Assembly: GCA_027603945.1 (NCBI GenBank)
Contig: JADIIU010000002.1
Location: 186,001-250,000, forward strand
DNA length: 64,000 bases
Reading direction: 5' to 3'
Origin: Terramyces sp. JEL0728
Taxonomy: Eukaryota; Chytridiomycota; Chytridiomycetes; Rhizophydiales; Terramycetaceae
Shown: positions 1 to 64,000 of the stretch, piece after piece
Position numbering within the stretch: position 1 is the first letter of the stretch
Layout: each line of letters begins with the position of its first letter
Made by a program: the position numbers and the translations under genes
Notes under the pieces: model-generated
The model's input: only the letters and a program-made list of their open reading frames with translations
Told to the model about the DNA's origin: nothing
Database searches by the model: none

Positions 1-9
1 AAAAAAGTA

Positions 10-1604
10 ATGGCATCCATTGGTATTAGTTTTGGTACTGTCTACTCATGCATCTCCATTCCAGACAAGGTATTCGTAATTAACGGAAGAATGGCATTCC
101 AGAGGCAATAGCAAACGAAGATGGATTCAGGCAAATTCCTTCATATGTTGCATACAATGATGTCGAAGTGTTATGCGGTACTCAAGCAAAGCAGCAAGCA
201 TTATCCAACCCAAAAGGAACCATCAACCACTTTCGTCCATTATTAGGGAAAAGGTATTTTGATCTTGACAATAGAACTGGAGATAAGGAAATTAAAGAAT
301 TTGGAAAAGCTTTTAGAGTTCCAATTGTTGCTTCTAATGAGGATCCAGCCTTACCTGTATTTGAAATCGAAACATTCCCTGAAGGAGCTGAAGAACCAGT
401 TATTTCGCAATACTCTGTCACTGATGTTACTGCAACCTACCTCAAGAAATTGAAGGATACTGCTGAATACTTCCTCAGTGCCCAAGTTGATAACTGTGTT
501 ATTTCTATCCCAGCCCACTTTGAAGAATCACAAAAGAAAGCTTTGTTGAAAGCTGCTCACGAAGCTGGATTCAAATCTGCCTATGAGTTGCATGAACCTG
601 TTGCAGCTGTCATGGCATTCAATAACCTTGGATCAACAACTCAAAACAAAATGGACAAACAGATTGTGGTTTTGGATCTTGGTGCAGAATCATTCAATAT
701 TACTTTGATTTCAAACCACGATGGATTATACACTATTGAAGACTCTGTCGAAGAACAAAACTTGGGGGGAAATGATTTTGACAAGGTTCTTGCTGAATTT
801 GCAAAGGAAGAGTTCAAACGCAAGACCAAGATGGACATATCCGACAACAAGAGATCATTAATCAAATTACAAAATGCTTGCGAGCGCACCAAAAGAGCCT
901 TGACTCGTCAAGACACTGCGCCATGCTCCGTAGAATCCTTGTATGATGGTATTGATTTTAACGGCTCCATCCCAAGGGCTAGGTTCGATATGCTTGCTGA
1001 ACCACTTTACAACAAGTGTAAAGCTGCTGTATTAAAGACCTTGAAGAAATCCAACTTGGCGGTCGAAAAGGTCGATCAAGTTGTTCTCATCGGAGGCAGC
1101 AGTAGAATGCCAAGATTCCAAGCTGCCATGAAATCCCTCTTTCCAAATGCAGATGCAGAGACTGAATTCAGATGTGATATTGAACCTGATGAAGCAATTG
1201 CTTTGGGATGTGCCGTCCAAGCTCAAATCCTTTTGGCAAACGAAATTGACTTTGATGTTAAATTTGAAAAAAAACTGATTGATGCAGAACACTTGTCTAA
1301 AACCATCACTATTGCCTCTGCTACAGGCGAACATGTACCAATTATCCCTGCAGGTACTCCTTTGCCAGTCCGTCGTCAATTTACCCTCCCCCTTGGTGCT
1401 AAACAAACCGGTATTTATCTTTCAGTGTTTGAATCTGATAGCAGCACCAATTCTTTGTTGGGCGAAGTTGTGTTGTCTGGCCTTCCAGATGATATCAAGG
1501 ACGGCAGAGTGGAAGTTGTTTTCTTGATTGAATTAGACCATGTATTACAAGTCACGATTACTGAAAAGGTCAGCGGCGAGAAAGTTCATGCTGCATTGAA
1601 ATAA
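10..1604 (+). CDS. SSZ1: Ssz1-like ribosome-associated Hsp70 (atypical Hsp70)
   Basis: Atypical cytosolic Hsp70. In fungi Ssz1 pairs with the J-protein zuotin in the ribosome-associated complex that stimulates the nascent-chain Hsp70. The start is the ATG at 10, and one 20-nt intron (70..89) restores the phosphate-1-like segment to the rest (reading NGIPEAIANEDG across the junction). The product is 524 aa, close to yeast Ssz1 (538 aa) and shorter than canonical Hsp70. The Hsp70 ATPase fold spans about residues 1-390 (IGISFG, VVLDLGAESFN, VVLIGGSSRMP). Only a short, diverged substrate-binding part follows, which is the Ssz1 hallmark. HSPA14 is the animal counterpart; truncation and overall resemblance favour Ssz1. 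An AATAAA (1600..1605) contains the stop codon. Confidence 0.85.
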
Positions 1605-1668
1605 ACCATCTTCAATAATTGAAAATTTCCGTGTCCAGATTTCTTGACATTTACTTTGGGGATCTAAA

Positions 1669-4600
1669 ATGGCCAAGAGAGTTACAGACTCTGATGAAGA
1701 ATCAGCCAACAAGAGACAGCGAAAAAAAGTACGACAATTCTGATAATAGGATTCAGGGTCAGAAGACTTTGATTCAGACAATGTGCAATCAGAAGGTGAA
1801 CTGGATGAACCGAATCGAAAAGATTTTTCAGGATTAGGAACTGTCGAATCAGTAACAATGGTCAATTTCATGTGCCATAAATACCTGGAAATTAAATTGG
1901 GCGAAAAGCTAAATTTCATAGTTGGTCATAATGGCTCAGGGAAATCTGCTATCCTTACAGCGTTGACTGTTGCATTGGGGGGAAAGGCTTCGTTCACCAA
2001 TCGCGCTACCAGCATCTCAAAGTTATTGAAAGAAGGGGAAGAGTATTATGTATTTAATTTCAGGGTCGGGGAAGTTATTGTAAGAATTAGAAATCGCGGG
2101 CCGGATGCCTACAAGCATGAAGAGTATGGCGATACTATTGTAGTCGAGAGAAAGATTGCACAAGCAGGCAGCGCTTCTGGATACAAAATGAAATCTCATT
2201 CTGGAAAGTTAATTTCCACCAGACACGATGAATTGATGGCAATCTGTGACCACTTGCAAATTGAGGTTGACAATCCAATGGCTATCCTAACTCAGGACAC
2301 TGCGAGAATGTTCTTGTCAAACAGTACGCCAAAGGACAAATACAATGTAAAAAATACTAAACCAGTTCTTTTTGAAAGGCACTCAGCTGGAAAGGTTGGA
2401 GCAGGATTACTTAAAAATGACTGAGAATATGGAAATGATTCAAAACTCTCTGATCCGAAAGGAAAATGTAGTTTAATTTTGATGCTAGGGAATTCCAGAT
2501 CTGGAAAAGGAAGTCAATGATTTAGCAAAGAAATGGAAGGTGGCTACTCTCTGACGTTTAGGATATGGAAATGGCCACCAAATTGGAAGGGAAAATCAAT
2601 GAGCTCCAGGCAGAACAAATTTGGTCGCGTGTTGCAGAAGTTGAAAAGAGAGCAGAAGATAAGCAGAAAGAGTGCAACTCCTTAAGAGGGAAAATCAGCA
2701 AGGTGGATGATTACATTCTGAACACTGAGCAGCAAGCCAAAGAATTCAGCGACTCTGTCGAAGAGCTGAAAGAGCGTGAACAGTTTGCAAAATCCCAAAC
2801 GATTCCTTTACATAGTCAAAAGCAGGAGATTATAGCAGCGCTGCAGCAAATAAAGTCAGGACTATTTAATTGTGAATCTCAAAAGAACCAGCTCCAGAAT
2901 GATATCCAAAGACAAAAAGAAGTAGTCCAGGACATCACAGACCGTATTAACAGAGAAAATAAAAAAATGTCGCAGGAATTCTTGAGTGAAAAGGAGGAAA
3001 ACGAAAGACAACTTTGCAAATTGAACAGACAAAGCGCTGAAAGCTTGGAGAAAATCGGGTTTGTAATTACTATTGATATAGACAAAGCATGAAGTTGATA
3101 GACTGGCAGGAGATATTGCTCGAGAAACTCTGCATGAAAAAAAAATTGAAGCTAATGTACAATCCTTGCGCCAAGAAATGGCATCTGTCCAAAGAAACAT
3201 TAAAGACTGCGAAGCGCAAAAGACGGACAAATTAGCTGCGTACATGAAAAATATGGCTTTTGTTGTTGGTGATGTCAATGAATGCGAACGTCTACGCAAA
3301 TGGAGCGGGTTTAAACCTGTTGGGCCAATCGGGATCCATGTGAAATTGAACCAGAAAAAGTACGCAAATCTCATCGAATCCCTATTGAATAGATCGGTCA
3401 ACGCCTTTGTAGTGCAAAACCAACAAGATTTCAGACTATTACAAGGAATATTGAAGCGTCACGCCTGGTAAATGTGAGGTAATGCTTTAGTTCTGCTCCA
3501 ATTTACAAGTACGACCCAAAAGGGGATCTAAACTATTACGATGGGCAGCCGTCAAAGAATTTGAAGACTGTCCTGGACGTATTGACCATTGACAACCAAA
3601 TAGCTTTGGAGCAATTGATTATCAACAATAACATTGAAAAAGCGGTACTGGTTGACACGATGGAAGAAGGCGATAGTTTGAATCCGTGGCCAAGAAACGT
3701 CAGCGGTGTATTTACGCCTGAAGGTCACTTAATTGGTGGGAAGCAAGGGGGATTGTCTACAGCAAGTATGTCTATGTACAGGGGCCCGCCCAGACTGTCC
3801 GAAAACGTCGATGAGGTGGTTAGGTAAATACCCATAATATCAGGGAACTCCAATATGAACTCGGCCAGTTGAAAGCAAAGTATGACGATGCCAGCTCGGA
3901 TTTGAATCAAACTAACAGAAAAAGAGTATCGATAGAGCGACAGAAGAGCAATTTGGTTGCCGAAATTAGACAAATGGAATCTGCAAGGTTAAAGATTGAA
4001 CGTGTCATTAGGGAGCGCGAAGAAAGTATTAACGTAATTAATTGCTAAATTCAGGACGCTCAGCCTGTCAATATTGACACATACATCAATCTCAAGAACG
4101 TAACTGAGACTAACTTTAGGAAGAGACAAGCAAATTGCACTTACTGGAAAAGCAGGTGCAAGACGCAAAATCTGCTGTTTCTGAAATTTCTGAAGCCCAG
4201 AAGTTGAAAAACGCCGAGCGAAGCCAGATTTTAAAGGAAATTAGTCAATGTGACACAACCATTAACAGTATACAAGCTGAGCTTTCCCAACTTGGTCCCC
4301 AGGCACATGCCTTCAACACAAAAATTACACACTACATAAACAAAAAGAATGAATACGCAGAAAAGTTGGCAGAGTTCACAGAACATTACGAGGTATTGAC
4401 TGACGCCTTGCAAAAGCAGATCGAATCTTGCAATGCCTATTGCGAAAGAGTGGAAATTACCCGTCCAAAGGAGGAAATCGACGAAGAACTAAAAAAAGTT
4501 CAAGCGTTGCTCCGAGAAAAGGAAAAACAGTATTCGCTAATTGATCTAGATTGGGATCTCGCGAAGCTCTCCACAAGAAATATACACAGAAAAAAGAAAC

Positions 4601-5228
4601 TCTTGATAATGCAATTAAGGAAATCAACGACTTTAAAACTTTGATGGACTGTCTCTTAAAGACAAAAGTCCGGCGTGAGCGGAGATTTGAAAGCTTCAGA
4701 TCATTCATCACAATTCGAGCAACCAGAATGTTTGCCGAATTAATCAGAAAGAGAGGATACCGCGGAGTGTTATCTCTTGATCATGCGGCTTGCACTCTCT
4801 CTTTGAATGTAATATTTATCTTATGGCAGGTTGATGTTGAAAATACAGGTAAAGTTGATGATCTTGAAGACGAAATTGATAACGATCCAAGAGCACTATC
4901 TGGTGGCGAAAAAAGTTATGCTACTGTATGCTTGCTACTTGCACTCTGGGAAGCTATGGCGTCTCCATTTAGAGCACTGGATGAATTTGATGTGTTCATG
5001 GACGCGGTTAACAGGAGATTGGCGATGAAGCTGATGATTGATAATGCAAGGGATGCTGACGTTCAGTCGCAATACATATTGATTACTCCACAAAACATGA
5101 GGTATAGTTATTGTTGATTTAGCAACATCAACATGAATGCTGCAGATATTCGTGTCCACCTTCTCAAGGCTCCTGAGAGGGGACAACAGACCTTGGACTT
5201 TTCAAGAGCAAGATCTAGAAATGAATAA
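1669..5228 (+). CDS. SMC6: SMC6, structural maintenance of chromosomes protein 6
   Basis: ATPase of the SMC5/6 complex, which acts in nuclear DNA repair and replication-fork stability. Twelve introns of 19-23 nt: 1729..1749, 2347..2365, 2468..2488, 2540..2561, 3063..3081, 3468..3490, 3824..3843, 4034..4054, 4100..4119, 4530..4549, 4809..4829, 5102..5122. Removing them leaves exactly 1104 codons (1103 aa). Walker A GHNGSGKS lies at residues 79-86, with an SMC6-typical NSTPKDKY stretch before the first coiled coil. A hinge follows in the middle, then the second coiled coil, then the ABC signature ALSGGEKSYATVCLLLALWE and Walker B ALDEFDVFMD. The C-terminus carries the ILITPQNMSNI-type motif. 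The 4809..4829 intron has no stop and is a multiple of three, so it is inferred from borders and alignment only. The gene converges on the ankyrin gene 29 bp downstream. Confidence 0.93.
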
Positions 5229-15674: not shown

Positions 15675-16022
15675 TTTTTTTCTTTCAAATTTAGTTCAAA
15701 TTTGTTCAAATTGTGGTCTGCAAATAGCACACCTATCATTTGAAAGCACACTCCTTAGATCCCTCTTCAGGAACTTGGTTTATCGAGTTCACCATCCTTG
15801 CGATGGGTATTGATTAGGCTTGAGTCATTGGTGTGCAACAGCAGTATACCTTCCTTCTTGTCCCATAGAGTTAGTCAGTCTTCAGACGAGTTTACACTAG
15901 CTCTAATGGACGGAAAGAGGACAATTCGATATTATTCCCATATTTGCAAGGCTGATATTAATATTGCAAGGACCATAAATTAAAAATTGAGGATTAATAT
16001 TCTGACCTCAGAAACGATAATC
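15675..16022. other. intergenic, divergent PEX14/ACBP promoter region
   Basis: 348 bp between two start codons on opposite strands. A 61-codon open frame on the plus strand (15798..15983) has no recognisable similarity and I regard it as chance. No repeat or RNA gene seen. Confidence 0.5.
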
Positions 16023-16307
16023 ATGACTATTTCCTACCAGCAAATATTCGACATGGCTGCCAACTATGTTCGCAATAGTCCTCCCAGAGGTGTTGAACTA
16101 CACGTCGCGAGCAAGCTGTACTCTTACTACAAACAGGCAACTGAAGGGGACCAACATAGAGAAGCCCCTTGGAAAATCAATGTGGAATCGTATGCCAAGT
16201 GGAGTGCCTGGAAAGAGCTCAAAGGCATGCGCAAAGACCAAGCGATGATGAAATACGTAGAGTTACTCAATCAAGTTGAACCAGGTTGGATCCACAAGCG
16301 AGTCTAA
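16023..16307 (+). CDS. acyl-CoA-binding protein (ACBP)
   Basis: 94-aa four-helix protein that binds medium/long-chain acyl-CoA esters and buffers their cytosolic pool. Seen: LYSYYKQATEGD (the conserved YxxYKQAT..GD core), then APWKINVESYAKWSAWKELK with the conserved W and K residues, and GMRKDQAMMKYVELL. The start at 16023 (MTISYQQIF) gives the standard ACBP length; the frame is open 12 codons further upstream. No intron. Confidence 0.92.
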   Translation: MTISYQQIFDMAANYVRNSPPRGVELHVASKLYSYYKQATEGDQHREAPWKINVESYAKWSAWKELKGMRKDQAMMKYVELLNQVEPGWIHKRV

Positions 16308-16467
16308 CCATTTCAAAGATACCCTTTTCTTGTATGATTTTAAATAAACAAATCTTCCCTCAAATAGTGCACACTCTGGACTTGATTGCACTGGGCAGCG
16401 TTTTGAGAGCCGCAGCCTACTTTATACTTGGGATTAACTCTATTTTTGTTTGCTGAAAAAAAATAAC

Positions 16468-19400
16468 ATGTTGAGCTCTAGATCGCCAATACCAAATAAT
16501 TCAAAGCCAGACCAATTGCGGCAAACATCTCTGTTGATTGAGGAGCAAATAAACAGAGACAAGTAACTTTGGATTGACGTAGTTTCCCGGATTTGCAAGA
16601 ATTACTTTTAGGTGAAAGAAAACGAACTTCGCAAACAACCATCAATGTCGACAATTCAGGAAAATGGAACTATCTTGTCGCCGAACCACTCAAAAACCTG
16701 CCGGAATTTATCCTGCAGAGATATGACTGTATATTTCGTTAACAATAGCATTGATGGTTTCGTCGTTTATGGGGATTTTCCCAGAGATTAATCATGTATG
16801 GATGACTATCGACAATCAATTGTACTTGTGGAATTACGAAGTACAAGAACCTATTTGTACTCACGAAGATCCGGATCAGGTTATTATCCACGTCAGTTTG
16901 GTCAAACCATTGCCTGGAATTTTCCTGGAGCAGATTGAATATTTACTGGTGATTGCAACACCATTGGAAATTACACTGCTAGGCATCGCATTTGAAGAGA
17001 AAAAGAAAGCAGGAAGGCCAAGGGGAAAAGTAAAAATATTCAGAACTGATTTGTCGTGCCATGCAGATAGCGTTAACATGTGTAGCATCATTGGGACTGA
17101 TCAAGGAAGAATCTTTATGCGTGGAAATGATGGCCAATTGTTTGAATTGGTTTATCAGGGAGAAGATGGCTGGCTCAGCAGAAAGATTAGCATGATAAAC
17201 CATTCTGGAGGCAGATTTGCAGTTTTCATTCCATCGATCTTCAATTGGGCTGGAAGTGGTAAACAAAGCTAATGTTAGATCCTATCAAGTTGATTGCCTT
17301 GGACAACGCTCGTAATACACTATATACTGTGACAAAAAACAATTACATTGAACTGGTTTACCTTGGACCAGATGGAAAAGGATTTACCAGTGTTGCAAAA
17401 TACAGAGACTTGAACAGCGAATTGAGCAAAATCAATGCATTCGATGATCAAATTGTAGCGCTCTACCCAATATCGCCAATCGAATCTAGATCATTGCATG
17501 TGGTTGTAATTACTTCGTCTGGAGTGCGTGCATATTTTTCCACCAATGAATACAGCTATGCATCCACAACCAACCCCAAATTCATAGAACCAAAAACCTT
17601 AAAGTGTCTCTTTGCATTTCCACCAAGTAACATTGCTGGCGCAATCAATCAAAGGATTAAGGTACATCAAGGGTTCTATTCCAATGGTATTACCATTACT
17701 TCACAAGCATTGGAGGATATTGATCGAATTTTAGTGTCAACTCCTCATGCTGGCACAATTGTCCAAGGAGATAGAAAGTATCTTGTAGAGTATGCCGGGT
17801 ATTGCGAGGTTGAAGGTCGCACATGGGCAATTGAAGAAATTCCATCTGAATTGCAAACTTCAATGAAAAGGAATCCCGTGGTTGGCTACTACCTAAACGA
17901 ATTGGCAACTCAGTTTGAATTCGAAGCTAGAAAGTTCTATCTGCTGACCAACGGTGGGTTACATACAATTATTAAACATCGTCCAATAGATATTCTATAT
18001 CAATTGCTTTCGTCCCAATCTCCAAGCAACATGCGCATCTTCCAAGACTTTTTCTCAAAGTAATTGGTTTTAATTGTAGTTTTGGGAACGATCAAAGTTG
18101 TGCTATGTGTTTAGCAATTGCCGCGAATCATCCGTAAGTATAACTAATGGTAGGTCTATCAATCAAGGGCTATATGCAGGTAATTTATTTTAAACAAAGT
18201 CAACAGTAATATTGTCAGTCTTGCGATTAAACTGTACTTTGAATTGGGTGGTGTGCCAGCAATGCGGACATCACCCCAAACCAATGTAGGAGGTGAATTA
18301 ATGCTAATTTTAGTATCTCCATTAGGCGTTCCATTCTCTCCAAACGATGTTGCTCATTCTGCAAAGTATAACGGGTTGGTTTTGTATATTTCAAGACTCG
18401 TGCGATCGTTATGGAAGCGCGAACTGGTTTCCAAAAGGTTTTCCAAACTAATGCCAGCGTTTCTCCAAATGGACAGGAATTACTGGTGCCAACTTTTACT
18501 TCTGAGCAGCTGGCATCTATTCAACTCAACTTGACCTCGTTGGAAGCTTTCCTAAAACTATATCCTAAACTAACAGCAGCTCCAACTCCGGATACAAGAC
18601 CGACTCAAGGAGACCACGAAGCATGGAAGATTGAACAGCAATCGTTCGCTTACATACATGAAATCATCATTCGTACGCTTGAAACTATTTCTTTCCTTTC
18701 TATCTTGATTGACTTTAAAATCCCCAATTTAGCACAGAACCTTTCAGAACATGATAGAAAAGAACTGATTGCTATCACTTTTGACGGGCTGGTAATACTG
18801 CCAAAAGGTAGAGACGTTGCCAAGGCATTAATGTCCGCGCTCGTCAACAATCAAATCAACAAGGAAATTGGTGCGGAATATGTCATTGATTCGCTTCAAA
18901 AGCGTTGCCCTGGAATTTGCGAGAGCAATGATGTAATTTTGTTCAAAGGAATGGAAAATTTACGCACCGCAAAATCAATTGCCAATCAAGGATCTTCTGC
19001 TCAATTGCTTCAAGATGCCCTAAAGTAAATTAAATTAACCTAGATTGTTCTTGTCCATTTCGAAGCATTTGGCTATGGAAAAGATGTCAGAAATTGTAGA
19101 AAACTTTCGACAATTGCGGTTTTATCCTGGAATTATTGAATTGGCTCTGCTAAAGTCATCAGAGTATGTGATTCCCGATAATCTGGCTGTTGATGTAAAC
19201 AACCCTTACAATGAAATTTTGGATTTGCGCCAACGTTGCTATGAATTGATATTTGGAACATTTTCATCAATTTCCACTTTAGGCAGCACTGGACAAATGT
19301 CAAAGGATCAAACTGAAAAATACACAAAGGTTTTGCTTGGCAAGGCACTGACGAGCGATGATAGGAATTTCCATTACTCGCTCTATACTTGGTTTATCAA

Positions 19401-21356: not shown

Positions 21357-21357
21357 C

Positions 21358-32000: not shown

Positions 32001-32159
32001 TTGGGAAAAAAATTTCTTAGGGCTAACAAAGGGCTGGTGAATTGGCATACATTGGGAGAGAAGAAATGACTCACCACACGATAGTCTACCTATCAATCGA
32101 GCCAGGAAATACGAGGAAGAATCATACACGATATATTTCTTGTCAATTATCGTTCTTTA

Positions 32160-46499: not shown

Positions 46500-48089
46500 A
46501 TGTCTGATTTCGCAGCACAGCTAACAAGCATAGCAATCGCTCAAATTCTGAATTTGATTGGAGTGGATAGGATACACGGATCTGCACACCAAGTGCTAGT
46601 TGAAGTGGTTCAAGCTTACATGGAGTTGATTGCAAAGAAAGCCGTGCAGTCAGCAAATTTGTGTGGAAGGACCGAACCTTGTCTCTTGGACCTCATGGGG
46701 CCTTTAAATCATTTAGAAATTCATCCTAGAGAGCTGCTAGGCTACTTGCAAGCGGTTAAACAGCAAAATCGATCACAATTCAAATTTCCCAGAACAGAGC
46801 CGGCCAATTTCCCAATAAGTGAGTAAGAATCTGACTGATTATTAGGCCTTGATGCAATAGAGTTTTGTTTGGAGGAGCAAACTATGGAGAATTCTAAAGT
46901 TTACACGAATGGCGACATGGAAAGTGATTCAGAAATGGATGTCGATGCTGTAAAGGGTGAAATTATTGACCAGAGTTTCCCCCCTTTACCAGTTGAAGAG
47001 GACTACACCTTTGTTGTAGAATCTGTTCAAGAAGTACCCGATATTGAAATTATCATTGAGGAGCCTAATCCTGAAGTAGTCAAGCCATCAGAAAATATTT
47101 ACTTTAAAACTATTAGTTTCCAGGAGGCAACTGAAAGCTACTTGAAGAATTATCACGAATTCGATGACATGCGGGTTGAAACTCCAAAAGCGATGAATGA
47201 CACTTCCGAAATAGACAGTTTGCTGTTGGAGGCTTTGGAGTGTTGTATTGTTGACGATGCAAATGCACCTTTGAACCACGAAACTACTCTAGGTCTTTTG
47301 ACAAACAGAACTAGCCTTGGTGTTGCTATTCCCGAACCGTCCAGCTGTGGATATGAAACCAAATCTATTATTGGAGATCTTTTGATTGCTAGGTTGCCAT
47401 TATGCAATACAGTTTTAGGTGGGGAAAAGCTATCGGAACGGGAAGCAAAGATGACTGAAGATTTAATTGGGCTGTCTAGAATCAAGAAGAAGGAAAAAGA
47501 AAGAGATTCTGGCCAAGGAAAAGCACCTGTTAAACTATCTGCTGCTAAATTAGCAAAAAGAGAAGCAATGCTTCTTGCCAAACTGGAAAGAGGTGCGATT
47601 ACCAGGGAAGAGTTTGAATTGACTATGAAAATGGAATCTCGATATGTTAAACAAGAGAAAAAGGATACAGCAAATATTGCCGAAGCTGAACATTCGCAAC
47701 CACAGACACCTGCAAATAGCAATCCGGCTGCGACCCCAAATATTTCTGGGATTCCGTTGGGTGATTCAGAGCGATCATACGAACCCGTTACTAAACTTCA
47801 GCCTGCTACCTTTGCCAAGTCTCCGCAGTCTTCCCCAGAGAAAACGAAAGATTCCCTGATACCTCCAAAACAATCTCCTCAAAAACTGAAGCTCAAACTT
47901 TTCAAACCGCCTAAGCTTGCTTCCCCAAAATCCCCAGAAGAAATTATTCATTGCATTTGCCAAAATCCAACTTTAGACGATGGGCTGTTTATGGTAAGTT
48001 GCGACAAGTGCCGCAAATGGTTCCATGGCCATTGCGTAAATGTAACTGCAGAAGTAGCAGAGTGGAGATGTCACCGTTGCTCTAAATAA
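46500..48089 (+). CDS. TAF3: TAF3-like TFIID subunit (histone fold + PHD finger)
   Basis: 520 aa; one intron 46819..46845 (27 nt, the longest single intron resolved). N-terminal bromodomain-associated histone fold (residues ~1-85: LTSIAIAQILNLIGVDRIHG, then LVEVVQAYMELI). A long acidic then Lys/Ser/Pro-rich linker follows. The C-terminal PHD finger is CICQNPTLDDGLFMVSCDKC with KWFHGHCVNVTAEVAEWRCH. This end-to-end layout is that of TAF3, whose PHD reads H3K4me3 and partners TAF10. A TAF8 or Bye1-type alternative lacks one of the two ends. Stop TAA lies in AATAAA (48085..48090). Confidence 0.78.
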
Positions 48090-48095
48090 ATAATA

Positions 48096-48681
48096 CTAAA
48101 TGTATTTATTCTGCGTGAGATATTCAATTGCCATCAAGTAAGTTTGAACACTCGGCAAGTTTAATTCCCCTCTTAATACCAACTGTTTCAGCTCTGGCAA
48201 AGCCATTTCATAAATTTCGATAAATTCTGGATCAAAAAGTAGTACCTTCTGCGTCTCTGTCTGCTGGATGGGTGTCAGGAACGGCATTCAAGCAAACAAA
48301 CGGAATGAACCTATTTCTCCCCCACTTTAGTTCAGGAATTCCCAAATGGTCATCATCTAATAATCGAACGAACGATCCATCTTTCAAACGCGCTTCTTCG
48401 TTCAGCTCTTTTTTTGCACAATCTAGGATCGTTGGATGTTTATCAAAAGCACCGGAAGGCAGGGTGAACCGTAAATCGTTGATCCCCTGATTGTATTCTT
48501 TGATGAGGGTTACTTTTTTTGTATTTGTGTTGAACGGAAATATTACCACGAAATGGGGTGGTTGCTTTCCTGATCCAACTGAATCCCAATCAATGATTTG
48601 GCCATTTGGATATTCTACTTTTGTATGCCAGAGACTTAGATACCGTTTGTACGCCAACTTTTCCTCTAAAACCTTAAACAT
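48096..48681 (-). CDS. Nudix hydrolase
   Basis: 188 aa; one 19-nt intron (48227..48245). Nudix box region GAFDKHPTILDCAKKELNEE, continuing ARL: the Gly and the KEL(N)EE core are present, but the first Glu of the GX5E pattern is replaced, so activity may be altered. Acts on nucleoside-diphosphate-linked substrates in general; the specific one cannot be told. The start is taken at 48681 (MFKVLEEKLAYKRYLSLW), since the upstream residues are hydrophobic and lie in the PCNA 3' region. Its stop is 6 bp from the convergent TAF3-like stop. Confidence 0.78.
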
Positions 48682-48718
48682 ATCAGAGAAAAACCAAAAA
48701 ATTATAAGCACGAATTTA

Positions 48719-49573
48719 TTATTCATCGTCATTCATCTTTGGTGCGAGATAATACCTAAAGTCAAATAATTCCATACCTAATGTATCCTAATTCACTCAC
48801 TTTAAACTCAATCATCATTGGAATATCTTCAGAGATACCCAAAATGACTTTTGGGGACAGCGGACTGGCTTTGCAAAAGTTGAGCAAGTATTTCAAGGAT
48901 AATACAACAGAAACTGGCTTATCGCAGGTGATTGTGCAGGAATCAGCTTCGTCTTTTTCGTCAATAGAACCACCACTCCCGTTCTTGATCATCACTGATC
49001 CTTGTCCGATTTCACCTTCTGCAGAGAATTGAACTCCTTCTTTGGTAATGGAGAGAGTCACTGATTCAGACAAGTTGCTGAGATCAGTACAGATTCTCTT
49101 CAATTCATTAGAGGATAATTCAATGGTGGCATCATATTCAGTGTCTGGAACACCCAAATGATCAGAATCTATGTCCATCAATTTCAGGTTATATTCTGAT
49201 ACTCTATCATTCTTGCTGTTTTCAAACAATAGAGACAAGACATCACCCTAATATTAGCAACGAATACCTTATCCTCGGCTTGCAAGGTTAGGACATCATC
49301 TGGCCCAACAGATCGTAATATTTTGCCAAGAGAGACTAGAGACATACCAAGGTTAATTGATCTGTCACATCTATAGTGCTACAATTAAATCAACTGTACT
49401 TCAAATCCAGTTTGTCTGAGGAGTAATACAATTAATGCAACATGCGCAGAATCCATAGCTTGCAGAGAGATACCAGTTGAATTGCAATCAAAGTTGACAT
49501 CGACCACCAAATCCTTGACTGCATCAAGAAGTTTCTTTAGAGTAACCGCAGGATTTAATCTGGCTTCAAGCAT
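48719..49573 (-). CDS. PCNA: PCNA, DNA sliding clamp
   Basis: 263 aa (family 258-264). Introns 49379..49399, 49248..49267, 48756..48777. Seen: [56 protein letters not shown] (restored by splicing), [17 protein letters not shown] region, the interdomain-loop [10 protein letters not shown], and the C-terminal [16 protein letters not shown]. The clamp tethers DNA polymerases delta/epsilon and repair factors. AATAAA overlaps the stop. Confidence 0.95.
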
Positions 49574-49639: not shown

Positions 49640-51922
49640 ATGGACTGCTCGTTCACTTGCTGGTCATACTATATCAAGGAAGAATATTCTCCCAACCATC
49701 CATTGTTTGAACTCATTAAAGAATTGATTCCGTTCTTTGATTCATACTTTGCAGAGTTCACTGAACAACAATTAACTGTTCCCTACACATATATAGATTA
49801 TTCGCAGATTCCAATTAAAATAAACTGTGAAACGATCGACGCAATGGGAGTAAGTGCGACATTCGCTGCCCATAAGCATAAATACAACCAGGGATTCACC
49901 TGCAAAGTCAAAGAGCGGATAATAAGGTTAATACGGCTAATAGTAGATTGAATTATTTTAATCCAATTAAATTAAAGGAATTGAAAGCCGAACTGGTTGG
50001 ACAATGGGTCAGTATAGTTGGGACGATAGGTAAGCACAAATTTACGAGTTCGCACCAGCTTTGTAAGACCATTCGTTAAGAGGGTTGAATGTAAATGCTT
50101 GGGATGCGAAAAGGTAACACCAGTGACTTTGTTTGATGGTAAATTTCAATACCCAGAAGAGTGCAGCACTTCGGGCTGTAGAGGTAAATAACTCTTAAAA
50201 AGGCGGGAATTATGACGTCAACAGAGTGAATCAGACTACGGTAGATTGGCAAAAGATTCGGATTCAAGAGAAATTGGCTGACGATGTTGTTGATTCTGGA
50301 CGTGTTCCAAGACAGGTAGAATGTGAATTGTCCGGAGATCTTGTGGATCGGCATGTGAGTTTTGCTTAAATTAGGTCCCTGGAGATATAGTTACTTGTTC
50401 CGGAATCGTAAAGTGTTTAGAAACTGAAAAGTCCAGAAATACCGGCCAGCTGTACTATTTATATATTGATGTTATGCATGTTAAAGGTGCTTTATACTGA
50501 CAAAGGAAAAGACGAAAAGGAAGGGAAGGATAGCATGAGATTCAACGAAAAGGATTTGCGAGGAATCAACGAAATTCACAACTACCAAGGTAGCAATCGA
50601 TTTATGTTCAGGCGACTTGTTTAAACTTTTGGTTCATTCTGTGTGTCCAACTGTGTTTGGCCACGAAATGGTGAAGGCTGGAATTCTGCTGACACTCTTT
50701 GGAGCCAGAAAACGGGAAAACAGCAGTTTGCGATCAGATCCGCATATGTTGATAGTTGGTGATCCAGGGCTAGGAAAGTCTCAACTACTGACAGCATGTA
50801 TTGATATTCTAATTTAGCTGTAAAATTGGCTCCTCGTGGAGTTTATGTCTGTGGGAACGCAACAACAACTGCTGGATTGACTGTCACTTTATGTAAGGAT
50901 TCTGAAACGGGAGACACTGCTCTTGAAGCTGGTGCTTTGGTACTTGGAGACCAAGGCATATGCTGTATCGATGAGTTTGATAAGATGAAGGAGCACCACG
51001 CGTTATTGGAGGCAATGGAGCAGCAATCTATTAGTATAGCAAAATCAGGAATAGTATGTTCATTGCCTGCTAGAACCAGCATAATTGCAGCGGCAAACCC
51101 GGTAGGTGGGCACTACAACAAGCAAAAAACAGTTTCTGAGAATTTGAAAATGAATAGTGCTTTGCTATCTAGGTTTGACTTGGTTTTCATCTTGCTGGAT
51201 GTCGCAGATGAAAACATGGACTCCTATTTATCGGATCACATCATGAAAATTCATTCTGGAAGCTTGAACACTGGTGTAAGATCTGTTGTTCAGCGCCAAA
51301 CTGCTTCGTCTTCGCTATTAGAGCGTTTGAGGATATTCAGTAATGAAGAGATTGATCCCATCCCACCTTCGCTGCTAAGAAAATATATATCGTACGCTCG
51401 CACATACTCGAAGCCCAAACTTACGAGAGAGGCTGCCGAGCTATTACAGGAATTTTATTTGCAACTTCGAAAGTAATCTTTTTTGATATAGAAAATACAA
51501 CACAACCCCAATTACTACGCGGCAATTGGAATCAATGATCAGGCTTTCGGAAGCCAGAGCTCGTTCGGAAATGAGGGATAGCGTAACTGCCCAGGATGCT
51601 CAAGATGTAATTGATCTTATGAAAACATCCTTGTAAGCTTTAATAACATAGATGGGATACATACGACGATGGAAGAATGATAGACTTCAATCGATCGCAA
51701 ATGGGAGCTGGAAACTCTCGGCAAAATGAAAAGAAACAATTCCTCATTGAATTGAACGACCTCAGTAGAAGGAATTGCACCAAGAAATTTAATTTTGACG
51801 AGATGAAGAGAGTTGCCGAAGGTATGGGGTTGAAAATCAGTGTGGTGGAGTTGATTGAATACCTGAATCTCCAGGGATATTTGATATCCAAAGGGAATCG
51901 AGTGTATGAATTGCAAATATAA
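49640..51922 (+). CDS. MCM8: MCM8 DNA helicase
   Basis: MCM-family AAA+ helicase used in homologous recombination and meiosis. Nine introns: 49927..49946, 50030..50048, 50184..50202, 50355..50374, 50487..50505, 50590..50611, 50798..50817, 51473..51491, 51633..51651, leaving 701 aa. N-terminal OB fold with a Cys4 zinc site (CKCLGC and CSTSGC). Walker [12 protein letters not shown], Walker [15 protein letters not shown]8-specific [20 protein letters not shown], and arginine finger [13 protein letters not shown]. The C-terminal winged helix ends [18 protein letters not shown]8 rather than MCM2-7 is shown by these blocks and the winged-helix tail. MCM9, its usual partner, is not in this window. 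Confidence 0.92.
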
Positions 51923-51963
51923 TCTTTGTAATAATTTTGAGCAAGAATATTTTTCAAATCTGA

Positions 51964-53368
51964 ATGCAGCGTTTCTCAATAATTAAACGCAATATAAGCA
52001 CATTTTACGATATAGCTATAGTTGGCGGTGGAATGGTCGGCACTGCGACTGCTTGTGCAATTGCTTCTTCGCCTTTCGCAAAGGAATTGAAAATTGCAAT
52101 AATTGAAAGCGGAGACTTGCTACAAAAACAATCCATCGCCGATAATAGTTATTCAAACAGAGTTTCATCGATTACACCCACTTCCGAATCATTCTTGAGA
52201 GATTTAAAAGCCTGGCAGTTGATTCCAGAAAACAGAAAGAGACCTTACACGGAAATGTATTTTTCACTGATATTAGGCATGTATGGGATGCGATTAGCGA
52301 CGGATCAATTAGCTTTACACCTGAAAATGGACATGTTGCAACAATTATTGAAAATCGTTTGATTCAGTCCAGTTTAGCAGAGATATCCAAGGAATATAGC
52401 CAGATAAAAGTCTTCAACAAAGACAAAGTACTGTCAATCACCAGGAGAGATGGTCACCGTCCTAGCTTAGCTTTAGAATCTGGTGTAAATATAGATTGCG
52501 AATTATTGGTAATCAGTTCTAATTCAGATTGGCGCTGATGGGTTCATGTCGAAAGTTAGAGATTTTGCGGATATTGATATTAATGGATACGATTATTCTC
52601 AGTTTGGATTGGTAGCAACTTTGAACGTTGAAGAAAATGACAATGTTACTGCGTGGCAAAGGTTCCTGCCAACCGGTCCTATTGCGCAGTTACCAGTATA
52701 CGTAATGTAACACTAGTTATCTAGCACAATGTCGTCCTTGGTTTGGTCCCTAAACGGCAATCTTGCACACAAGCTTGCAAAAATGGATCCTAAAGAATTT
52801 GCACAATTGGTTAACGTTGGATTTTTAAATAGGTTCCAGGATCTCCAATATATTCTGGACAATATTGACAATGATGGAAAGTGCAGTGTTGATATTTTTA
52901 ATGAAGCACAATGGGGAAGAGAAGAGTTTGCAAGTAAATTCCATCCACCAACAGTCCTTGACGTTCAAGAACATTCCCGAGGAGCATTTCCACTGAGAAT
53001 CCGCCATGCAGATACTTATGTTGCGGACCGAATTGCTCTTGTAGGGTACTCATTGTTAATATAGCGATGCAGCGCACACAATGCACCCGCTAGCTGGCCA
53101 AGGACTAAATATTGGATTTTCGGATGCCAAAGCTTTGGGTAGAGTAATATCCAACGGTCTCAGAGATGGTACAGATTTAGGCAGTGTATTGTTGTTGAAA
53201 GAGTACGAAAGCAGCAGCTACATGTCAAATGCAGGCATTATGCTTGGTGTTGATTTCATGTCGAAAATGTTTGCTACCGCAACGACGTCCCCAATTCGTG
53301 CTCTTGGAATGAATCTGTTGGACAAATCTAGATTCCTCAAAGACGCAATAATGAAAGTGGTTGGCTAA
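51964..53368 (+). CDS. COQ6: COQ6, ubiquinone biosynthesis flavin monooxygenase
   Basis: 441 aa; introns 52257..52276, 52509..52527, 52696..52716, 53046..53064. FAD motif YDIAIVGGGMVGTATACAIA near residue 15, preceded by a basic presequence (MQRFSIIKRNIS). Family block NRVSSITPTSESFL, then the COQ6-typical MHVWDAIS, LLIGADGFMSKVR, LSSTMSSLVWS, and VGDAAHTMHPLAGQGLNIGF. Catalyses C5 ring hydroxylation in coenzyme Q synthesis at the mitochondrial inner membrane, so the organism makes ubiquinone and probably respires. AATAAA overlaps the stop (53367..53372). Confidence 0.93.
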
Positions 53369-53396: not shown

Positions 53397-55058
53397 TTAT
53401 GGAGCAAGACGTTTAGGGTCTCTTGGGAACAGAGTGGACTTTCTAATGTTTCCGAGATTTAGGTAGAACATCAACACTCTTTCCAAGCCCACACCACCAC
53501 CAGCGTGAGGAGAAGCACCGTATTTAAACGCATCGATATATGGCTTAATTGTACCAACATCAATTCCGAATTCAGTTGCTCTTTTGGCTAAAAATTCAGC
53601 ATCATGAACACGTTGGGCCCCAGAGAGAATTTCTTCTCCTCTCATGAAGAAATCGTAGGAGTTACTATATCCCTATCGTTAATGCGTATTACAGGCATGT
53701 TTGGGTCTGGCATGGTGTAGAACGGACGGACAGAGAGAGGGAATTTGTCAAGGATAAAGAAATCGGTGTGGTACTTTTCTTTTACCAATTCACCCAGTTT
53801 CTTTTCGGTGGCAGTGTTAAAGTCTTCATGGTCATCAACAGTTAATCCAGCATCGCGTAAAAGCTGAATAGCTTCAGGGAACTCTAAAATAAGTGTTTTT
53901 TGCAAGTATTTGAATTCTGGGAACGGATATTGTCTGTTGACGATTTCAAGCTCGTTTGCACAGTCGTTCTTGATACCATCAAAGATAGCAACAAACATCT
54001 CACCCAACATGTAGAGCACCTCGTGGTAGTGTTCGTTGAAAGACATTTCCAAATCCAATCCGGTAAATTCAGTCATATGACGGTGGGTGAGAGAGTTTTC
54101 AGCTCTAAATACAGGTGCGATTTCGTAAACACGGTCAAAATCAGCGCAGATCATCATTTGCTTGTGAAGTTGAGGAGACTGAGCCAAAAATGCCTTTTCC
54201 TTAAAGTATGGAACTTCAAACACGTTGGCACCACCTTCACTGGCACCACCATTGATTTTTGGAGTGTGGATTTCGGTAAACCCTCTTGCATCAAGGAAAT
54301 TTCTAAAATGCTTCGTAATGGTAGCTTGAACTCTGAAGATGGCTTGGTTTGTAATTGTTCTAAGGTCAATGACCCTGTTGTTAAGACGGGTGTCCAAATG
54401 AATAGGGCTAAAGCCAGACTCTTCAGTAATTTGAGCAATTGGACGAGAAGCATCTTCCATGGTGAATGGCAAGCGTTCAGCGCTGCTAATTACATAGATC
54501 TTTGTAATTTTTAGCTCGTAATTTTGAACGGTACACGACTTGATCAATTCTGGAGATTTGGTTACAACAGCCTCCACTTTGACGAGGGATTCTGCTGAGA
54601 TACCGGTGGCAAACTTGAGCATTTGCTTGCTAACCGTATTTTCGTCAACAACCAAGATAGATTGGACAGTTTCTGTACGCTGGCGCAAAGTGACAAACAG
54701 CATTTTGGCACCAGTTGGACGAGATACTTGAACTCTGGCGTTCAGTGTAATCGCCTTGTCGACATGCTCTTCACCAATGTTCTTGATTGCAACAAAAACG
54801 GTATCGCTTTTTGCATGCGATTGGTTCATTGGCAATTTTCCATAGAAATCAACCGAGTAATCCTACTTGTTATATAAAATGTACTGGGGACGCAGCTTCT
54901 CTTGCCAATCTTTCTTGTTCCAATCTTTCCGCAACTTGGCGCTTACGCTCTTCCTTTTCTCTTTCCTTTTGCAATTTCTTCAATGCATTCTTGGTAAGTG
55001 GTTTGCCTTCAGCGTCGAGCACCAATTCTGATAATTTTTCAGCTGTTTGTTCAGTCAT
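53397..55058 (-). CDS. DPS1: aspartyl-tRNA synthetase, eukaryotic cytosolic type
   Basis: Class IIb synthetase, 539 aa from the ATG at 55058. Introns 54863..54884 and 53673..53692. Lys/Glu-rich N-terminal helix, OB-fold anticodon domain, then class II motifs: motif 2 [20 protein letters not shown] and motif 3 [20 protein letters not shown]. The QSPQLHKQM and [14 protein letters not shown] blocks are diagnostic for AspRS. The frame stays open upstream to at least an ATG at 55166, adding 36 basic residues that look like a presequence (see findings). Confidence 0.94.
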
Positions 55059-55460
55059 TTCTTTTGCAGTGTAAAAATTTTTTCTGCTATCTAAGGTCAA
55101 GTGTCTCGTAAGAGTCATAGGAATAGGGTTATAGCTAGTGAAATTTATCCTTCTAATGCGGTTCATATGATGGATGGATGTGGAATTTATTAATGTACAG
55201 TTTCCAATACGACTCGTGAAAAGTGATAAAATATTTTTTGGGGGTTTTGAGAGAATGACTCTCCGTAATTTATTGAGAGCTAGCAATTGACTACATTAGA
55301 GTGCCGGAAATGTCTGAGAATATATTGAGGATCTGAAGTGCACCTAGAGAATATATAAATCTGATTATTTCTGGCATCTCATATTGAAAAGGAGAGTGCA
55401 AGAAAGTCGCTTAATCACCGTCTCTCTTATCTTTGTGAGACAATTTTTGTTTGTTGAAAA
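55059..55460. other. divergent AspRS/Raptor region
   Basis: 402 bp between the AspRS start and the Raptor ATG. The first ~108 bp (to 55166) may code an alternative AspRS N-terminus. The remainder shows no recognised element. Confidence 0.45.
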
Positions 55461-58400
55461 ATGGACGACGAAGAATCATCACAGGACGACTTTCAATACT
55501 TTTACTTTTCAGATAGACGGCATGCAAGGACAAAACCAGCACCTGCACCACCCCAGAATACCGAATGGAGAATTAAAGAAAAGCTAAAGACAGTGTCTGT
55601 ATCACTAGTCTTGTGTTTGAACATTGGAGTGGATCCTCCAGATATCGTAAAGACAAAGCCGTGCGCAAAAATGGAATGTTGGATTGATCCATTCTTGCTT
55701 CCTGGTCAAAAAGCTTTGGAAGCTATTGGGCGGAATCTTCAATCCCAATACGAAGCATGGCAACCAAGAGCCCGGTACAGATTATCGTTGGATCCAAGCA
55801 TTGAAGAAACCAAAAAGCTGTGTTGTTCACTGAGAAGGAATGCAAAGGATGATAGAATCTTGTTCCATTACAATGGCCACGGTATTCGGATGTTAATTTA
55901 GGTGTCCCTCGACCAACAGTAGGCGGGGAAATCTGGGTTTTCAACAAAAACTACACTCAGTATATACCAGTAACGATATATGACATACAAACATGGCTGG
56001 GGTCGCCTTGCATATACGTTTATGACTGCAGCAACGCAGGACATATTTTAAACGCATTTAATCGATTTGCTGCACAACGAGATGCAGAAATGGCCAATCA
56101 CTTGAATAATACGAATTTAGACGGAATGGCGGCCCCCTATACCCCATTGTCGCAATGCATTCAACTTGCTGCCTGTCAAGCATACCAGACGTTACCAATG
56201 TCCCCAGACTTGCCCGCAGATTTATTTACGGCCTGTTTAACAACGCCGATAGAAATTGCACTACGGTGGTTTGTGTTATCCAATCCGCTAATTAAAAATG
56301 TTACATTAGACATGACAAACAAAATCCCTGGCCGAGTAACAGATCGCCGCACTCCGCTGGGTGAATTAAACTGGATTTTCACTTCAATTACAGACACTAT
56401 TGCATGGAGTGTATTGCCAACAGATTTGTTTATCAAGCTATTTAGAAATGATTTGATGGTTGCAGCTTTATTCAGAAACTTTTTGTTGGCAAATAGAATC
56501 ATGAGACACTACAACTGTATTCCAATGTCTTCGCCAGTTCTGCCTGACACTCACCAACATCCAATGTGGGAAGCATGGGATTTGGCAGCGGATCATTATC
56601 TCGCACAGCTTCCAAACTTGCTTTCAAATAATTCACAGGTGGAATACAAACTCAGCACATTCTTCTCAGACCAGTTGTCCGCATTTGAGGTTTGGATAAA
56701 GCGGGGAAGCATATCTAAAGAGCCTCCGCTCCAGTTGCCGATCGTGTTGCAAGTATTACTTAGTCAAGTTCATAGACTCAGAGCGCTTTTGCTTCTCAGC
56801 AAATTTTTGGACTTTGGCAAGTGGGCGGTGGATTTGGCACTTTCGGTTGGCATTTTCCCATACGTCCTAAAACTACTGCAATCTCCAGCTCTTGAATTGC
56901 GGCCAGTGTTGGTTTTTATTTGGGCAAAGCTTCTTGCAGTAGACTCATCTTGCAAGACAGATTTACTAAAGGACAGTGGATATACTTACTTTATCGGAAT
57001 ATTAACTAATACCAACCCGAATGCGTTCCTTGTACCAAATATTTCTGAACACCGAGCAATGTGTGTCTTTATTTTGTCGGTATTTTGTGAAGGGTATCCT
57101 CTTGGAAAGCAAGCTTGCCTTGGCAACGACCTTCTGCCTGCACTTTTACCATACCTGTCTGACCAAGATTCACTGTTGCGACAGTGGACTTGCGTTTGTC
57201 TTTGCAACTTTTGGACATCTTTTCCAGATGCAAAATGGGCTGCTTATAATGCTAATGCACAAGAACAATTATCCGCCATTCTCCTGGATTCTGTTCCCGA
57301 AGTTCGTGCTGGTGCAGTGGCAGCTCTAGGCGCTTTATTTGGTGATCTAGATAGAATTGAGCAAGTGCTAAATCTGGAGCAAAACATTGTTGTATCGATT
57401 CTCAAAACAACCACAGACTGCTCTCCTTTAGTTCGGAAAGAGCTGGCATGCGCATTATCGCGTCTTGTTGAAGAAGATGAAGTGAAATTCATTCAAACTG
57501 CATATGAGTTGTTTGATGATGAACGAAAAGCTGCTGGCTACGAAGGTGATAGGGCATCGAGTAGGATAAGCTTGGAATCCTCAAGGATAGCAGGTATACA
57601 GCAGTCGATGCATTTGATAGTCTGGAAAGCAATTCTCACAATTTCTGTTGATCCATTCCCCGAGGTTGCCGTAATTGCAATGAATATTGTGGATAAAATC
57701 AATGGCTTACTGGTAAAATCCTCAATCGTAGATCCCTCAATGAACAGCTGGATTCAGGCTCAAAAAGCATTCGTAAAACCTGTCTCGATCACCCCTAAAG
57801 TTAAAAACATTGCTCGTAAGATACAGCCTACTCCAGGATCTGTTGCGTCTGGGATTTTTGGTATTTCTATGGAATCAGAGACCCAGCCTTCCCTCAAAAG
57901 ATCTTCTTCGTTTGTTTTCAATCTGAAAGCATTAGGAAATTACATTGGCATACCTTCTGGCTCAGTTTCCAACGGCGAAGTTTTAAGCCGCCCAACACCA
58001 ACCATTTCTCGAATGCGTCCTCAAAGCATGTATCTTCCGCGAGTGAATTTAGACAACAGCCAGCAGAAAGTGAAGCCAAGCCCAAGTGAATCGAATATTA
58101 AATTTGCAACTCCCCAAACCCAGATAGCAGTTAAATCAACCTTTTTTGAATGGAGCTGTGAATACTTTATGGAGCCGCAAATGAAGGTAGTCTGTTTTTA
58201 ACTATAGCTGACGGATATTGAAGATCCTGGGAGTGAAAAATATAGCGAGAGGCAGTGGCGATCAATAAGGAATGAAAAATTGAACCAAGAAGCACAATCG
58301 CTGTATCAAACTTTGGATTCCAACAGATTCGAAAAATTCATGGGCCAAATTCCGTTCGAAAACGATAGCTTTACAGACGATCGTGTATTACTATTCCATC

Positions 58401-59423
58401 CCTATGACCCATATTTGCTCGTATCGGATAATAACAGCATTTGGTAATAATGAACTCATTGCAGTGTTATTGACTGGGAAACAAGACAGCCTTTGCATGT
58501 TATAAGCAACCAAAACCCTGCCAGAAGTAGAATTACTTCTTTGAAATTCATTAATGAAGAAGACTCTTCAATTCTGTTAGTTGGGTCAGGTATTACGCGA
58601 GCTTACGGTAGATGAAGGAGTTGTTAGATTATACAAAGATTATCACGACCCGGATAATGTCCAGTTAATTACTGCTTGGAGAGTGCTAACTGATATTACC
58701 CCTGGCCAATCTAATTCGCTAGTGTGCACTTGGAATCAAACTCAAGGAAACCTTTACACTGCTGGGAAATCATCAATTATTAAAGTTTGGGACGCAGAAG
58801 AAGAATTGTGCGTGCATGTGAGAAGATATTTAACTTTAGGATATTTCCACGAGTTCAACAAGCTCGGTAGTAACAAGCTTAGATAGCTGTTTGGCGGGGA
58901 ATACATTATTGTCCGGATTTAGTGACGGATTGGTGAAGCTGTTTGATAGAAGATCCTCTCCAGATTCGTAATGCCATTCTAATATTAGGTGCATCAACAG
59001 CCTTATTGCTGGCGCCGGCGATGCCAGCGTTCAATTCCTTAATGAAAGTTCAACGGATTTTATTACTTGTACATATAGTGGCGATATCCTTTTGTGGGAT
59101 ATTCGTCAATCTGATCCTGTGGTTAAAATTCAAACTGCTGTTCCATCGATACTTACAAACTTCCAAGCCCACCAACAAGCCTCCCTATTCACTTGGTACA
59201 TCTTACTTTACTTAGCATATCCCCACACCAAGACATCTCAATTATGAATCTAAAAGGTGCAACTTTAGGTTGTATCAAACCTCAACAATCGTTCCTCAAT
59301 CGAATGGCGCCTACCATTAATGGATTGTCCTTGCATTCCAGACGCCTAACATTAGCATATTCCTTATCATCTGGTATTTACATTTATGAATCAGAAGCAA
59401 AATCCAATATTACTGAATTTTAG
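55461..59423 (+). CDS. RPTOR: Raptor/Kog1, TORC1 scaffold
   Basis: 1271 aa (human about 1335). Seven introns: 55883..55902, 58187..58207, 58444..58464, 58590..58611, 58818..58839, 58968..58988, 59196..59215. N-terminal conserved caspase-like domain: [20 protein letters not shown], then [11 protein letters not shown] and [18 protein letters not shown] repeats occupy the middle, with a serine-rich linker around residues 780-900. Seven-blade WD40 propeller at the C-terminus, where six of the seven introns fall ([51 protein letters not shown]). Raptor recruits substrates with TOS motifs to TOR kinase in nutrient signalling. Confidence 0.94.
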
Positions 59424-63020: not shown

Positions 63021-63027
63021 ATACTAT

Positions 63028-63450: not shown

Positions 63451-63483
63451 TATTGTTGCGGTTGTCAAATATTTTTTCTCTTT

Positions 63484-63711
63484 TTAAGATTGTTGGCTCA
63501 TGCTTGAATCAACCTCACTCATACTCGTTTCAGATAAGAAATGCTTTTTGGCCTTTGGCTCGATTAAAAGCATTATTGCCCCAATGAGATTCCTTCTGCT
63601 GAATTCCTTTAGTGCACTTGCAAATTTACTATTCGCGCAATTCTCTGTGGAATCCACCTGCAGATATGCCTTGATTACACAAGTAGGAATAGGAAATTTA
63701 GAAAGATTCAA
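63484..63711 (-). other. open frame without ATG, possible 3' continuation of the homeobox gene
   Basis: A 75-codon frame with no initial ATG, in the same frame as the homeobox exon but separated from it by one TAA. The Ser-rich end (SMSEVDSSMSQQS) and a helix-like stretch ALKEFSRRNLIGAIMLLIEP look protein-like. No GT-AG intron of usual size removes the stop, so it is either non-coding or a separate, incompletely modelled exon. Confidence 0.2.
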
Positions 63712-63720
63712 CCCAATAAT

Positions 63721-64000
63721 TTATTTGCAGTTTCTACAGGTGCTCAAAAGTCTTTTAGACGCTACTATTAAATTCCACATACCATGCTTGAACCAACAGA
63801 GCAAGTCTTCCTTCTTTAACCCAGTAATTTCTGATAGTTCCCACAGCCTATCATCATCCTCAGTGGGCAGGGTATCATGCATATTGAGATAGGCTTTCAA
63901 TGCATGCATGGCTCCGGCGGATATCTGCTTGCGTGTATTTATTCTCCTGCCAAACACTGTTTTCCCAGGCTTTCCGTTTAATCTGCGCTGTGCTATCATC
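63721..64000 (-). CDS. homeodomain protein, 3' end only (truncated by window edge)
   Basis: The last 85 residues are visible; the 5' part runs off the window. One 21-nt intron, 63762..63782, rebuilds WFKHASKRLL. The pattern AGAMHALKAYLNMHDTLPTE, then LSEITGLKKEDLLCWFKHAS matches helices 1-3 of a homeodomain with conserved Leu16, Trp48 and Phe49. The normally invariant Asn51 is His and Arg53 is Ser. A fungal homeobox regulator is likely, but DNA recognition may be altered. Stop TAA lies in AATAAA. Confidence 0.55.
   Translation of the reverse strand, partial: MIAQRRLNGKPGKTVFGRRINTRKQISAGAMHALKAYLNMHDTLPTEDDDRLWELSEITGLKKEDLLCWFKHGMWNLIVASKRLLSTCRNCK

Follow-up and report, generated by a model that had tools for sequence, protein, structure and literature searches.

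Analysis of a 64,000-nucleotide (nt) stretch of contig JADIIU010000002.1 of the chytrid Terramyces sp. JEL0728 (Chytridiomycota, Rhizophydiales, Terramycetaceae; hereafter, the window), together with 20 further 10-kb stretches of its genome, confirmed the observation that the predicted genes of this fungus contain ultra-short introns, mostly 19–22 nt in length. Judging from the sequence, it is almost certain that these segments are excised spliceosomal introns. The sequence shows GT-AG borders, a YTRAY motif 6–7 nt from the intron end, the absence of the segments in orthologues, and one-base length differences between paired contigs. The full statement, that ordinary U2-type introns have shrunk almost uniformly to approximately 20 nt and are removed through compact or sequential docking, is the one that we hold to be rather probable; on the compact or sequential docking of the donor and branch helices, taken by itself, we are evenly divided.

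The window and the 20 stretches amount to 264 kb of the 15.0-Mb genome. Genes were predicted with a finder that works on both strands together, takes codon use into account and accepts introns of 10–150 nt, whatever their phase. In the first run, a flat prior was used, in which every intron length and every splice site received an equal score and no bias to 20 nt was introduced. With GT-AG borders, 288 introns were obtained, of which 132 were 17–24 nt, and a spike was observed at 19, 20, 21 and 22 nt (29, 49, 25 and 17 introns, respectively). Ten other pairs of donor and acceptor dinucleotides, used as decoys, gave 259–286 introns each, but only 18–37 of them were 17–24 nt; the spike is seen with GT-AG alone. 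This result argues against an artefact of gene finding or assembly, in which random GT...AG pairs would bridge frame breaks or sequencing indels, since the decoy pairs gave no comparable number. The finder does choose introns by frame, some of its calls are wrong (several of them long), and a 33-nt call in the 5-oxoprolinase-like gene could hide an assembly error. Nevertheless, many of the same introns are present in the deposited gene models and domain scores rise when the segments are removed, as described below, and we consider an artefact very improbable.

In the second run, the finder was self-trained, and the counts given hereafter are from the 119 models with a coding sequence (CDS) of at least 450 nt. 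Introns of 17–24 nt accounted for 416 of 460, with 39 longer and 5 shorter, and 99 of the 119 models carried at least one of them. From 17 to 24 nt, the numbers at each length were 1, 15, 93, 146, 110, 40, 10 and 1 (mean 20.2 nt, standard deviation 1.1 nt). The distribution of lengths, which the initial annotation of the window had proposed as a check, peaks at 20 nt and is dominated by 19–22 nt, and its proposal that ultra-short GT-AG introns occur throughout the genome, among genes of a fungal kind, is supported. Ultra-short-intron genomes have a narrow length distribution, at or below approximately 25 nt, across the genome, and the same was found in the 264 kb sampled. When all models in the window were counted, 122 of 134 introns in 35 models were 17–24 nt, and 117 of 129 when models with a CDS below 450 nt were dropped. 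Because training draws the counts toward 20 nt, the weight rests on the flat-prior run and on the comparative tests. The length of 290 of the 416 short introns is not a multiple of three; 76 of the other 126 contain an in-frame stop, the remaining 50 being free of one. Extrapolation of 416 per 264 kb gives approximately 24,000 introns in 15.0 Mb, a figure in which duplicated contigs are counted twice.

The short introns follow the consensus GTA...YTRAY-2/3 nt-AG. At the donor, A is found at +3 in 89% of the 416, and positions +4, +5 and +6 hold little information (0.15, 0.08 and 0.23 bits, respectively); the exon ends with A at −2 in 57% and G at −1 in 48%. The acceptor is TAG in 248, CAG in 105, AAG in 58 and GAG in 5. 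The YTRAY branch motif was recovered by a motif search without a preset pattern, and its branch A is located at +14, +15 or +16 in 347 introns and at −6 or −7 in 322. The spacing from donor to branch is 13–15 nt and the tail after the branch A is 5–6 nt, which leaves next to no space for a polypyrimidine tract, as the initial annotation had remarked. Independently of the gene finder, we counted GTA...YTRAYNNAG with a total length of 18–23 nt within the spans of window models of at least 150 amino acids, and found 28 in the sense and 2 in the antisense direction, an imbalance that also speaks against random pairing of GT and AG.

Comparison with orthologues gave results consistent with removal of the segments. 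The deposited Terramyces SMC6 protein keeps the intron at 2043–2063 as YYVFNFR, a segment with no counterpart in any of six other chytrid proteins; in the coiled-coil parts of SMC6, the alignment is too loose to prove much. Similarly, the intron at 33553–33573 of the LENG1-like gene is retained as YIITDSR in the deposited protein P0241; at this site, nothing is found in Boothiomyces, Globomyces, Kappamyces and B. dendrobatidis, and four unlike residues in Powellomyces and Spizellomyces. Domain scores were examined as well. The score of U2AF65, which at 251.7 bits fell short of the cut-off of 310.3, became 334 once the predicted short introns were removed, and by the same removal two pieces of Slu7 (139 and 104 bits) became a single match of 289 bits over the whole profile. 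In the 18 window models scanned, 64 of 100 short introns sit at least three residues inside a Pfam match, or 52 of 100 without sub-threshold matches and a heavily gapped SMC_N stretch.

Pairs of similar contigs allowed another test. Over 3.1 kb, contigs L022 and L023 share 98.9% identity, and they are most simply explained as two haplotypes. In their two gene bodies, all 16 substitutions are exonic, and the two indels, each of one base, are both intronic, giving 21 versus 20 nt in each case. These genes contain 161 homopolymer runs, only 7 of them in introns, so that the chance of two errors both being intronic is approximately 0.002. Contigs L034 and L035 have one internal indel of 10 nt, which is intergenic in the L035 model and in L034 falls within a joined model that is probably false, and L045 and L046 are identical over 5 kb and hence uninformative. 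These three pairs are 99–100% identical, and it seems that in places both haplotypes have been retained in the assembly.

The deposited Terramyces models, judged from their proteins, agree with 10 of the 18 introns checked (SMC6, 7 of 13; the Hsp70-family gene, 1 of 2; the LENG1-like gene, 2 of 3), and the other 8 are retained or placed differently. The short introns of Terramyces are thus partly in the public record already. The deposited P0121 splices the first intron of the Hsp70-family gene as we do and retains the second as YFDLDNR; it is a fusion of the Hsp70-family and SMC6 genes of 1,530 amino acids, probably produced through misread short introns.

Per-gene counts were close to those of the initial annotation: 13 introns in SMC6 (12 before) and 9 in Raptor (7 before). 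Our joined ACBP/NUP155 model has 14 short introns and the joined MCM8/COQ6 model also 14, where 11 had been given for NUP155 and 9 for MCM8 alone. Twelve introns in the window fall outside 17–24 nt, one of 13 nt and eleven of 33–150 nt. The calls at 16332–16481 (150 nt), 32023–32163 (141 nt), 48615–48755 and 51904–51998 are probably gene-to-gene bridges and not introns, and 47994–48051 appears coding by eye. A 94-nt call at 50030–50123 in MCM8 resolves to 50030–50048 (19 nt), and after this removal the short call at 50139–50156 looks coding, indicating that some short calls are wrong as well. The 13-nt and 33-nt calls in the 5-oxoprolinase-like gene are doubtful; a 17-nt reading of the latter (24486–24518) breaks the frame. 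In the Isy1 model, a 62-nt call separates parts that match the family profile, so that rare longer introns may also occur. At the start of the same model (L032, 1694–1758, minus strand), three intron-like units stand in a row, 3–4 nt apart, for which one 65-nt intron, tandem introns and nested introns are candidate readings. In a histone deacetylase model, two 20-nt introns are back to back at 45932–45971 (minus strand) with no exon between them, either by intron duplication or by a miscall.

As for the splicing machinery, Prp8, Prp6, U2AF65, Slu7, Isy1 and Cwc25 were found in the genome, together with a U2 small nuclear RNA (snRNA) that has the branch box GTAGTA. Prp6 is encoded in the window and shows 89% identity to that of Boothiomyces sp. 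JEL0838 and 65% to that of Globomyces pollinis-pini. The U2AF65 gene has four introns of 19–20 nt of its own, and Isy1 was found in three pieces. Cwc25 is encoded on two near-identical contigs, where both copies start MGGGDLNLKKSWHP; the CWC25 domain was confirmed and the N-terminal glycine plug is intact, so that the plug loss that belongs to the steric-clash model for Stentor is not seen here. The LENG1-like gene of the window was considered as a Cwc25 with a Stentor-like plug loss and rejected, since its homologues name it LENG1-like and the real Cwc25 keeps the plug.

That the genome also encodes the U2 snRNA and core proteins of the spliceosome, along with GT-AG borders and a branch motif complementary to U2, argues against removal of real segments by other means, such as translational bypassing or elimination from the DNA itself, like that of the internal eliminated sequences of ciliates. 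Elimination from DNA is further opposed by the presence of the segments in the DNA that was read. Such removal would fit the evidence being from DNA only and the failure to detect U1 and U6 (see below), and it seems to us barely conceivable.

How a spliceosome might handle these introns can be considered from their anatomy. U2 would pair with the short YTRAY core and U6 would hold little beyond GUA at the donor, so both helices would be short. The AG located 3–4 nt past the branch A would be used directly, with neither scanning nor a polypyrimidine tract; the 3′ splice site would then not have to be searched for, and Slu7 is retained nonetheless. In the pre-catalytic complex, the donor and branch helices would be far nearer than in the human B complex, either by compaction or by docking one after the other. 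In the human complex they are reported to be 15 nm apart, equivalent to approximately 21 nt of RNA, and the minimum distance from donor to branch is estimated as 52 nt (PMC6692369). The 13–15 nt of Terramyces, at 0.7 nm per nucleotide, would reach 9–11 nm when fully stretched. Since this is less than 15 nm, the human B-complex geometry would be impossible on Terramyces introns, if the comparison holds. The same calculation counts against a wholly conventional spliceosome, flexible enough to remove a 20-nt intron without special arrangement. The factors found do look ordinary, including U2AF65 and the plug of Cwc25, and we regard this explanation as unlikely, yet worth keeping in view. Where human short introns have a truncated tract, SPF45 takes the place of U2AF65 (PMC8363638); in Terramyces, U2AF65 is kept.

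Several points weigh against ordinary introns with compact or sequential docking. The support comes from DNA sequence, the intron set is the output of a self-trained finder, and Pfam and NCBIfam were scored on proteins already stripped of the segments. The haplotype test is a small sample of two indels, both in T homopolymer runs, and the geometry of the complex is a proposal. In addition, Rfam and pattern searches, in which only part of the candidates was scored, gave no credible U1 or U6 snRNA, a result that does not show their absence. A second U6 pattern search of the genome gave no match. Two Rfam matches to U6 (27 bits; cut-off, 44) were rejected, as they lie in a protein-coding frame across a short intron on two near-identical contigs, and six pattern matches with three mismatches had no U6-like continuation by eye. 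Among the splicing factors named in the initial annotation, Prp8 and U2AF65 are present and U6 was not found by these searches. U2 snRNA was found at once (140 bits), unlike U1 and U6. No RED_N candidate was found in the genome by a search that had no positive control and does not show absence.

It is established that a cell that splices cannot be without U6. The misses of U1, U6 and RED may therefore reflect gaps in the assembly, RNA genes that are themselves interrupted by introns, or what the searches can detect. This consideration bears on another explanation, that early factors (U1 and RED) were lost or rebuilt and the tiny introns follow from altered donor recognition. It would account for the missing U1 match, the missing RED_N candidate and the little information at donor positions +4 to +6. 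U6, however, was missed as well and is indispensable, the outcomes for U1 and RED do not prove absence, and the exon preference for A at −2 and G at −1 is compatible with pairing to U1 or U5; we consider this explanation improbable. In its most explicit form, with U1 lost or unrecognizable, RED lost, a bare GUA picked by U6 and Prp8, and a compact activation that the human B-complex geometry forbids, it is likewise an improbable account.

We next compared the introns with known ultra-short-intron systems. The initial annotation had named chlorarachniophyte nucleomorphs, Stentor and Paramecium, a list that omits the mikrocytids (PMC10245619) and Trichomonas (PMC12316389). It had also remarked that none of these systems uses the fungal-type gene set; Terramyces is itself a fungus, and its deposited proteins already use 10 of the 18 introns checked. 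In Stentor coeruleus, introns are 15–16 nt; the branch A occupies position 10 and is followed by a tail of 5 nt, and the authors of that study offer the conjecture that a clash with the tight loop is prevented by alterations of Cwc25 and Isy1 (PMC9505925). Stentor and Terramyces share uniform tiny GT-AG introns, a GUA donor and a branch A near the end, the tails being nearly equal in length. In Terramyces, however, the branch A lies between +14 and +16 and the loop is 4–6 nt longer, there is a YTRAY motif where no strong branch consensus is described for Stentor, the glycine plug lost in Stentor is kept, and 99 of 119 models have a short intron as against 18% of Stentor genes with introns.

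Chlorarachniophyte nucleomorph introns, at 18–21 nt, are the closest to those of Terramyces in length, but the nucleomorph is a relict endosymbiont nucleus (PMC10245619) and the present case is the 15-Mb nuclear genome of a fungus. The same source describes the mikrocytids, parasites with 224 introns of 16–17 nt and a much reduced spliceosome of 17–19 proteins. They resemble Terramyces in the narrow size range and conserved motifs; in Terramyces, by contrast, there are 416 short introns in 264 kb and the factors found each belong to a fuller set. Paramecium is likewise rich in short, uniform introns, but these are longer (median 24–25 nt; PMC12862383) and wider in range, and it is a ciliate. 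Trichomonas has 23-nt introns, which the available part of a 2025 paper compares only with those of Stentor and Bigelowiella (PMC12316389).

Among fungi, the average intron of Cryptococcus neoformans is 56 nt and a class of 20–40 nt exists (PMC11913375), so that single fungal introns of approximately 20 nt would not be new. Yarrowia resembles Terramyces in having no polypyrimidine tract and a branch point anchored near the 3′ end, and short introns also occur in the microsporidian Encephalitozoon (PMC2483917). For none of these three is a genome-wide mode near 20 nt described in the parts of these papers available. Among the papers listed in searches of the open-access literature, we found neither a fungus with such a mode nor a paper describing the short introns of Terramyces, most subscription papers being outside the search.

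From its sequence, Terramyces thus appears to add a new branch of the tree to the ultra-short-intron genomes, with splicing proteins that are unusually ordinary among those tested. If transcript data agree, genome-wide 20-nt introns would be found among the opisthokonts, in a fungus whose close relatives have been sequenced and which has many ordinary spliceosome proteins, and Terramyces would be a good test of the smallest intron removable by an ordinary spliceosome. The donor-branch distance of 13–15 nt, against the human estimate of 52 nt, would make the lower limit of spliceosome activation testable in a fungus, and the intact plug of Cwc25 argues against plug loss as a general need for tiny introns, as conjectured from Stentor. 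Deposited chytrid proteins can contain retained introns and fused genes. A survey of more than 3,000 eukaryotic genomes excluded introns below 30 bp in all species (PMC10639083), and such surveys are blind to lineages of this kind.

Table 1. Genes of the window with their predicted introns (positions counted from the first letter of the window).
Gene	Position	Strand	Introns	Remarks
Hsp70-family	1–1604	+	70–89 (20 nt), 254–274 (21 nt)	gene model
SMC6	1669–5228	+	13 of 19–23 nt	gene model; aligned with the deposited model and six further chytrid proteins
SMC6, introns 1–7		+	1729–1749, 2043–2063, 2347–2365, 2468–2488, 2540–2561, 3063–3081, 3468–3490	
SMC6, introns 8–13		+	3824–3843, 4034–4054, 4100–4119, 4530–4549, 4809–4829, 5102–5122	
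NUP155	16023–20475	+	14 of 19–21 nt and one 150-nt call	model joined to upstream ACBP gene
5-oxoprolinase-like	24185–28271	−	6 of 20–23 nt	all within Pfam matches
thioredoxin-domain (PDI-like)	28330–29911	−	4 of 20–22 nt	
Ras-family and M24-peptidase	30846–32819	−	6 short; 141-nt call	one joined model; short introns all within Pfam matches
LENG1-like	33257–33996	−	33449–33467 (19 nt), 33553–33573 (21 nt), 33682–33703 (22 nt)	
Prp6	34036–36774	+	none	
isocitrate lyase	38103–39792	−	3 of 21–23 nt	all within Pfam match
DUF3591 and bromodomain	40237–43652	−	5 of 19–21 nt	presumably TAF1-like
MCM8	49640–53368	+	14 of 18–22 nt	model joined to downstream gene (MCM8/COQ6)
class II aminoacyl-tRNA synthetase	53397–55118	−	53673–53692, 54863–54884	
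Raptor	55461–59423	+	9 of 20–22 nt	

Two RNA genes were also noted in the window. An Rfam match to SNORA53 at 15745–15925 (plus strand; 55.8 bits, cut-off 38) lies between two gene models and is probably an H/ACA small nucleolar RNA gene, and a tRNA-Arg (TCG) is located at 21285–21357 (plus strand).

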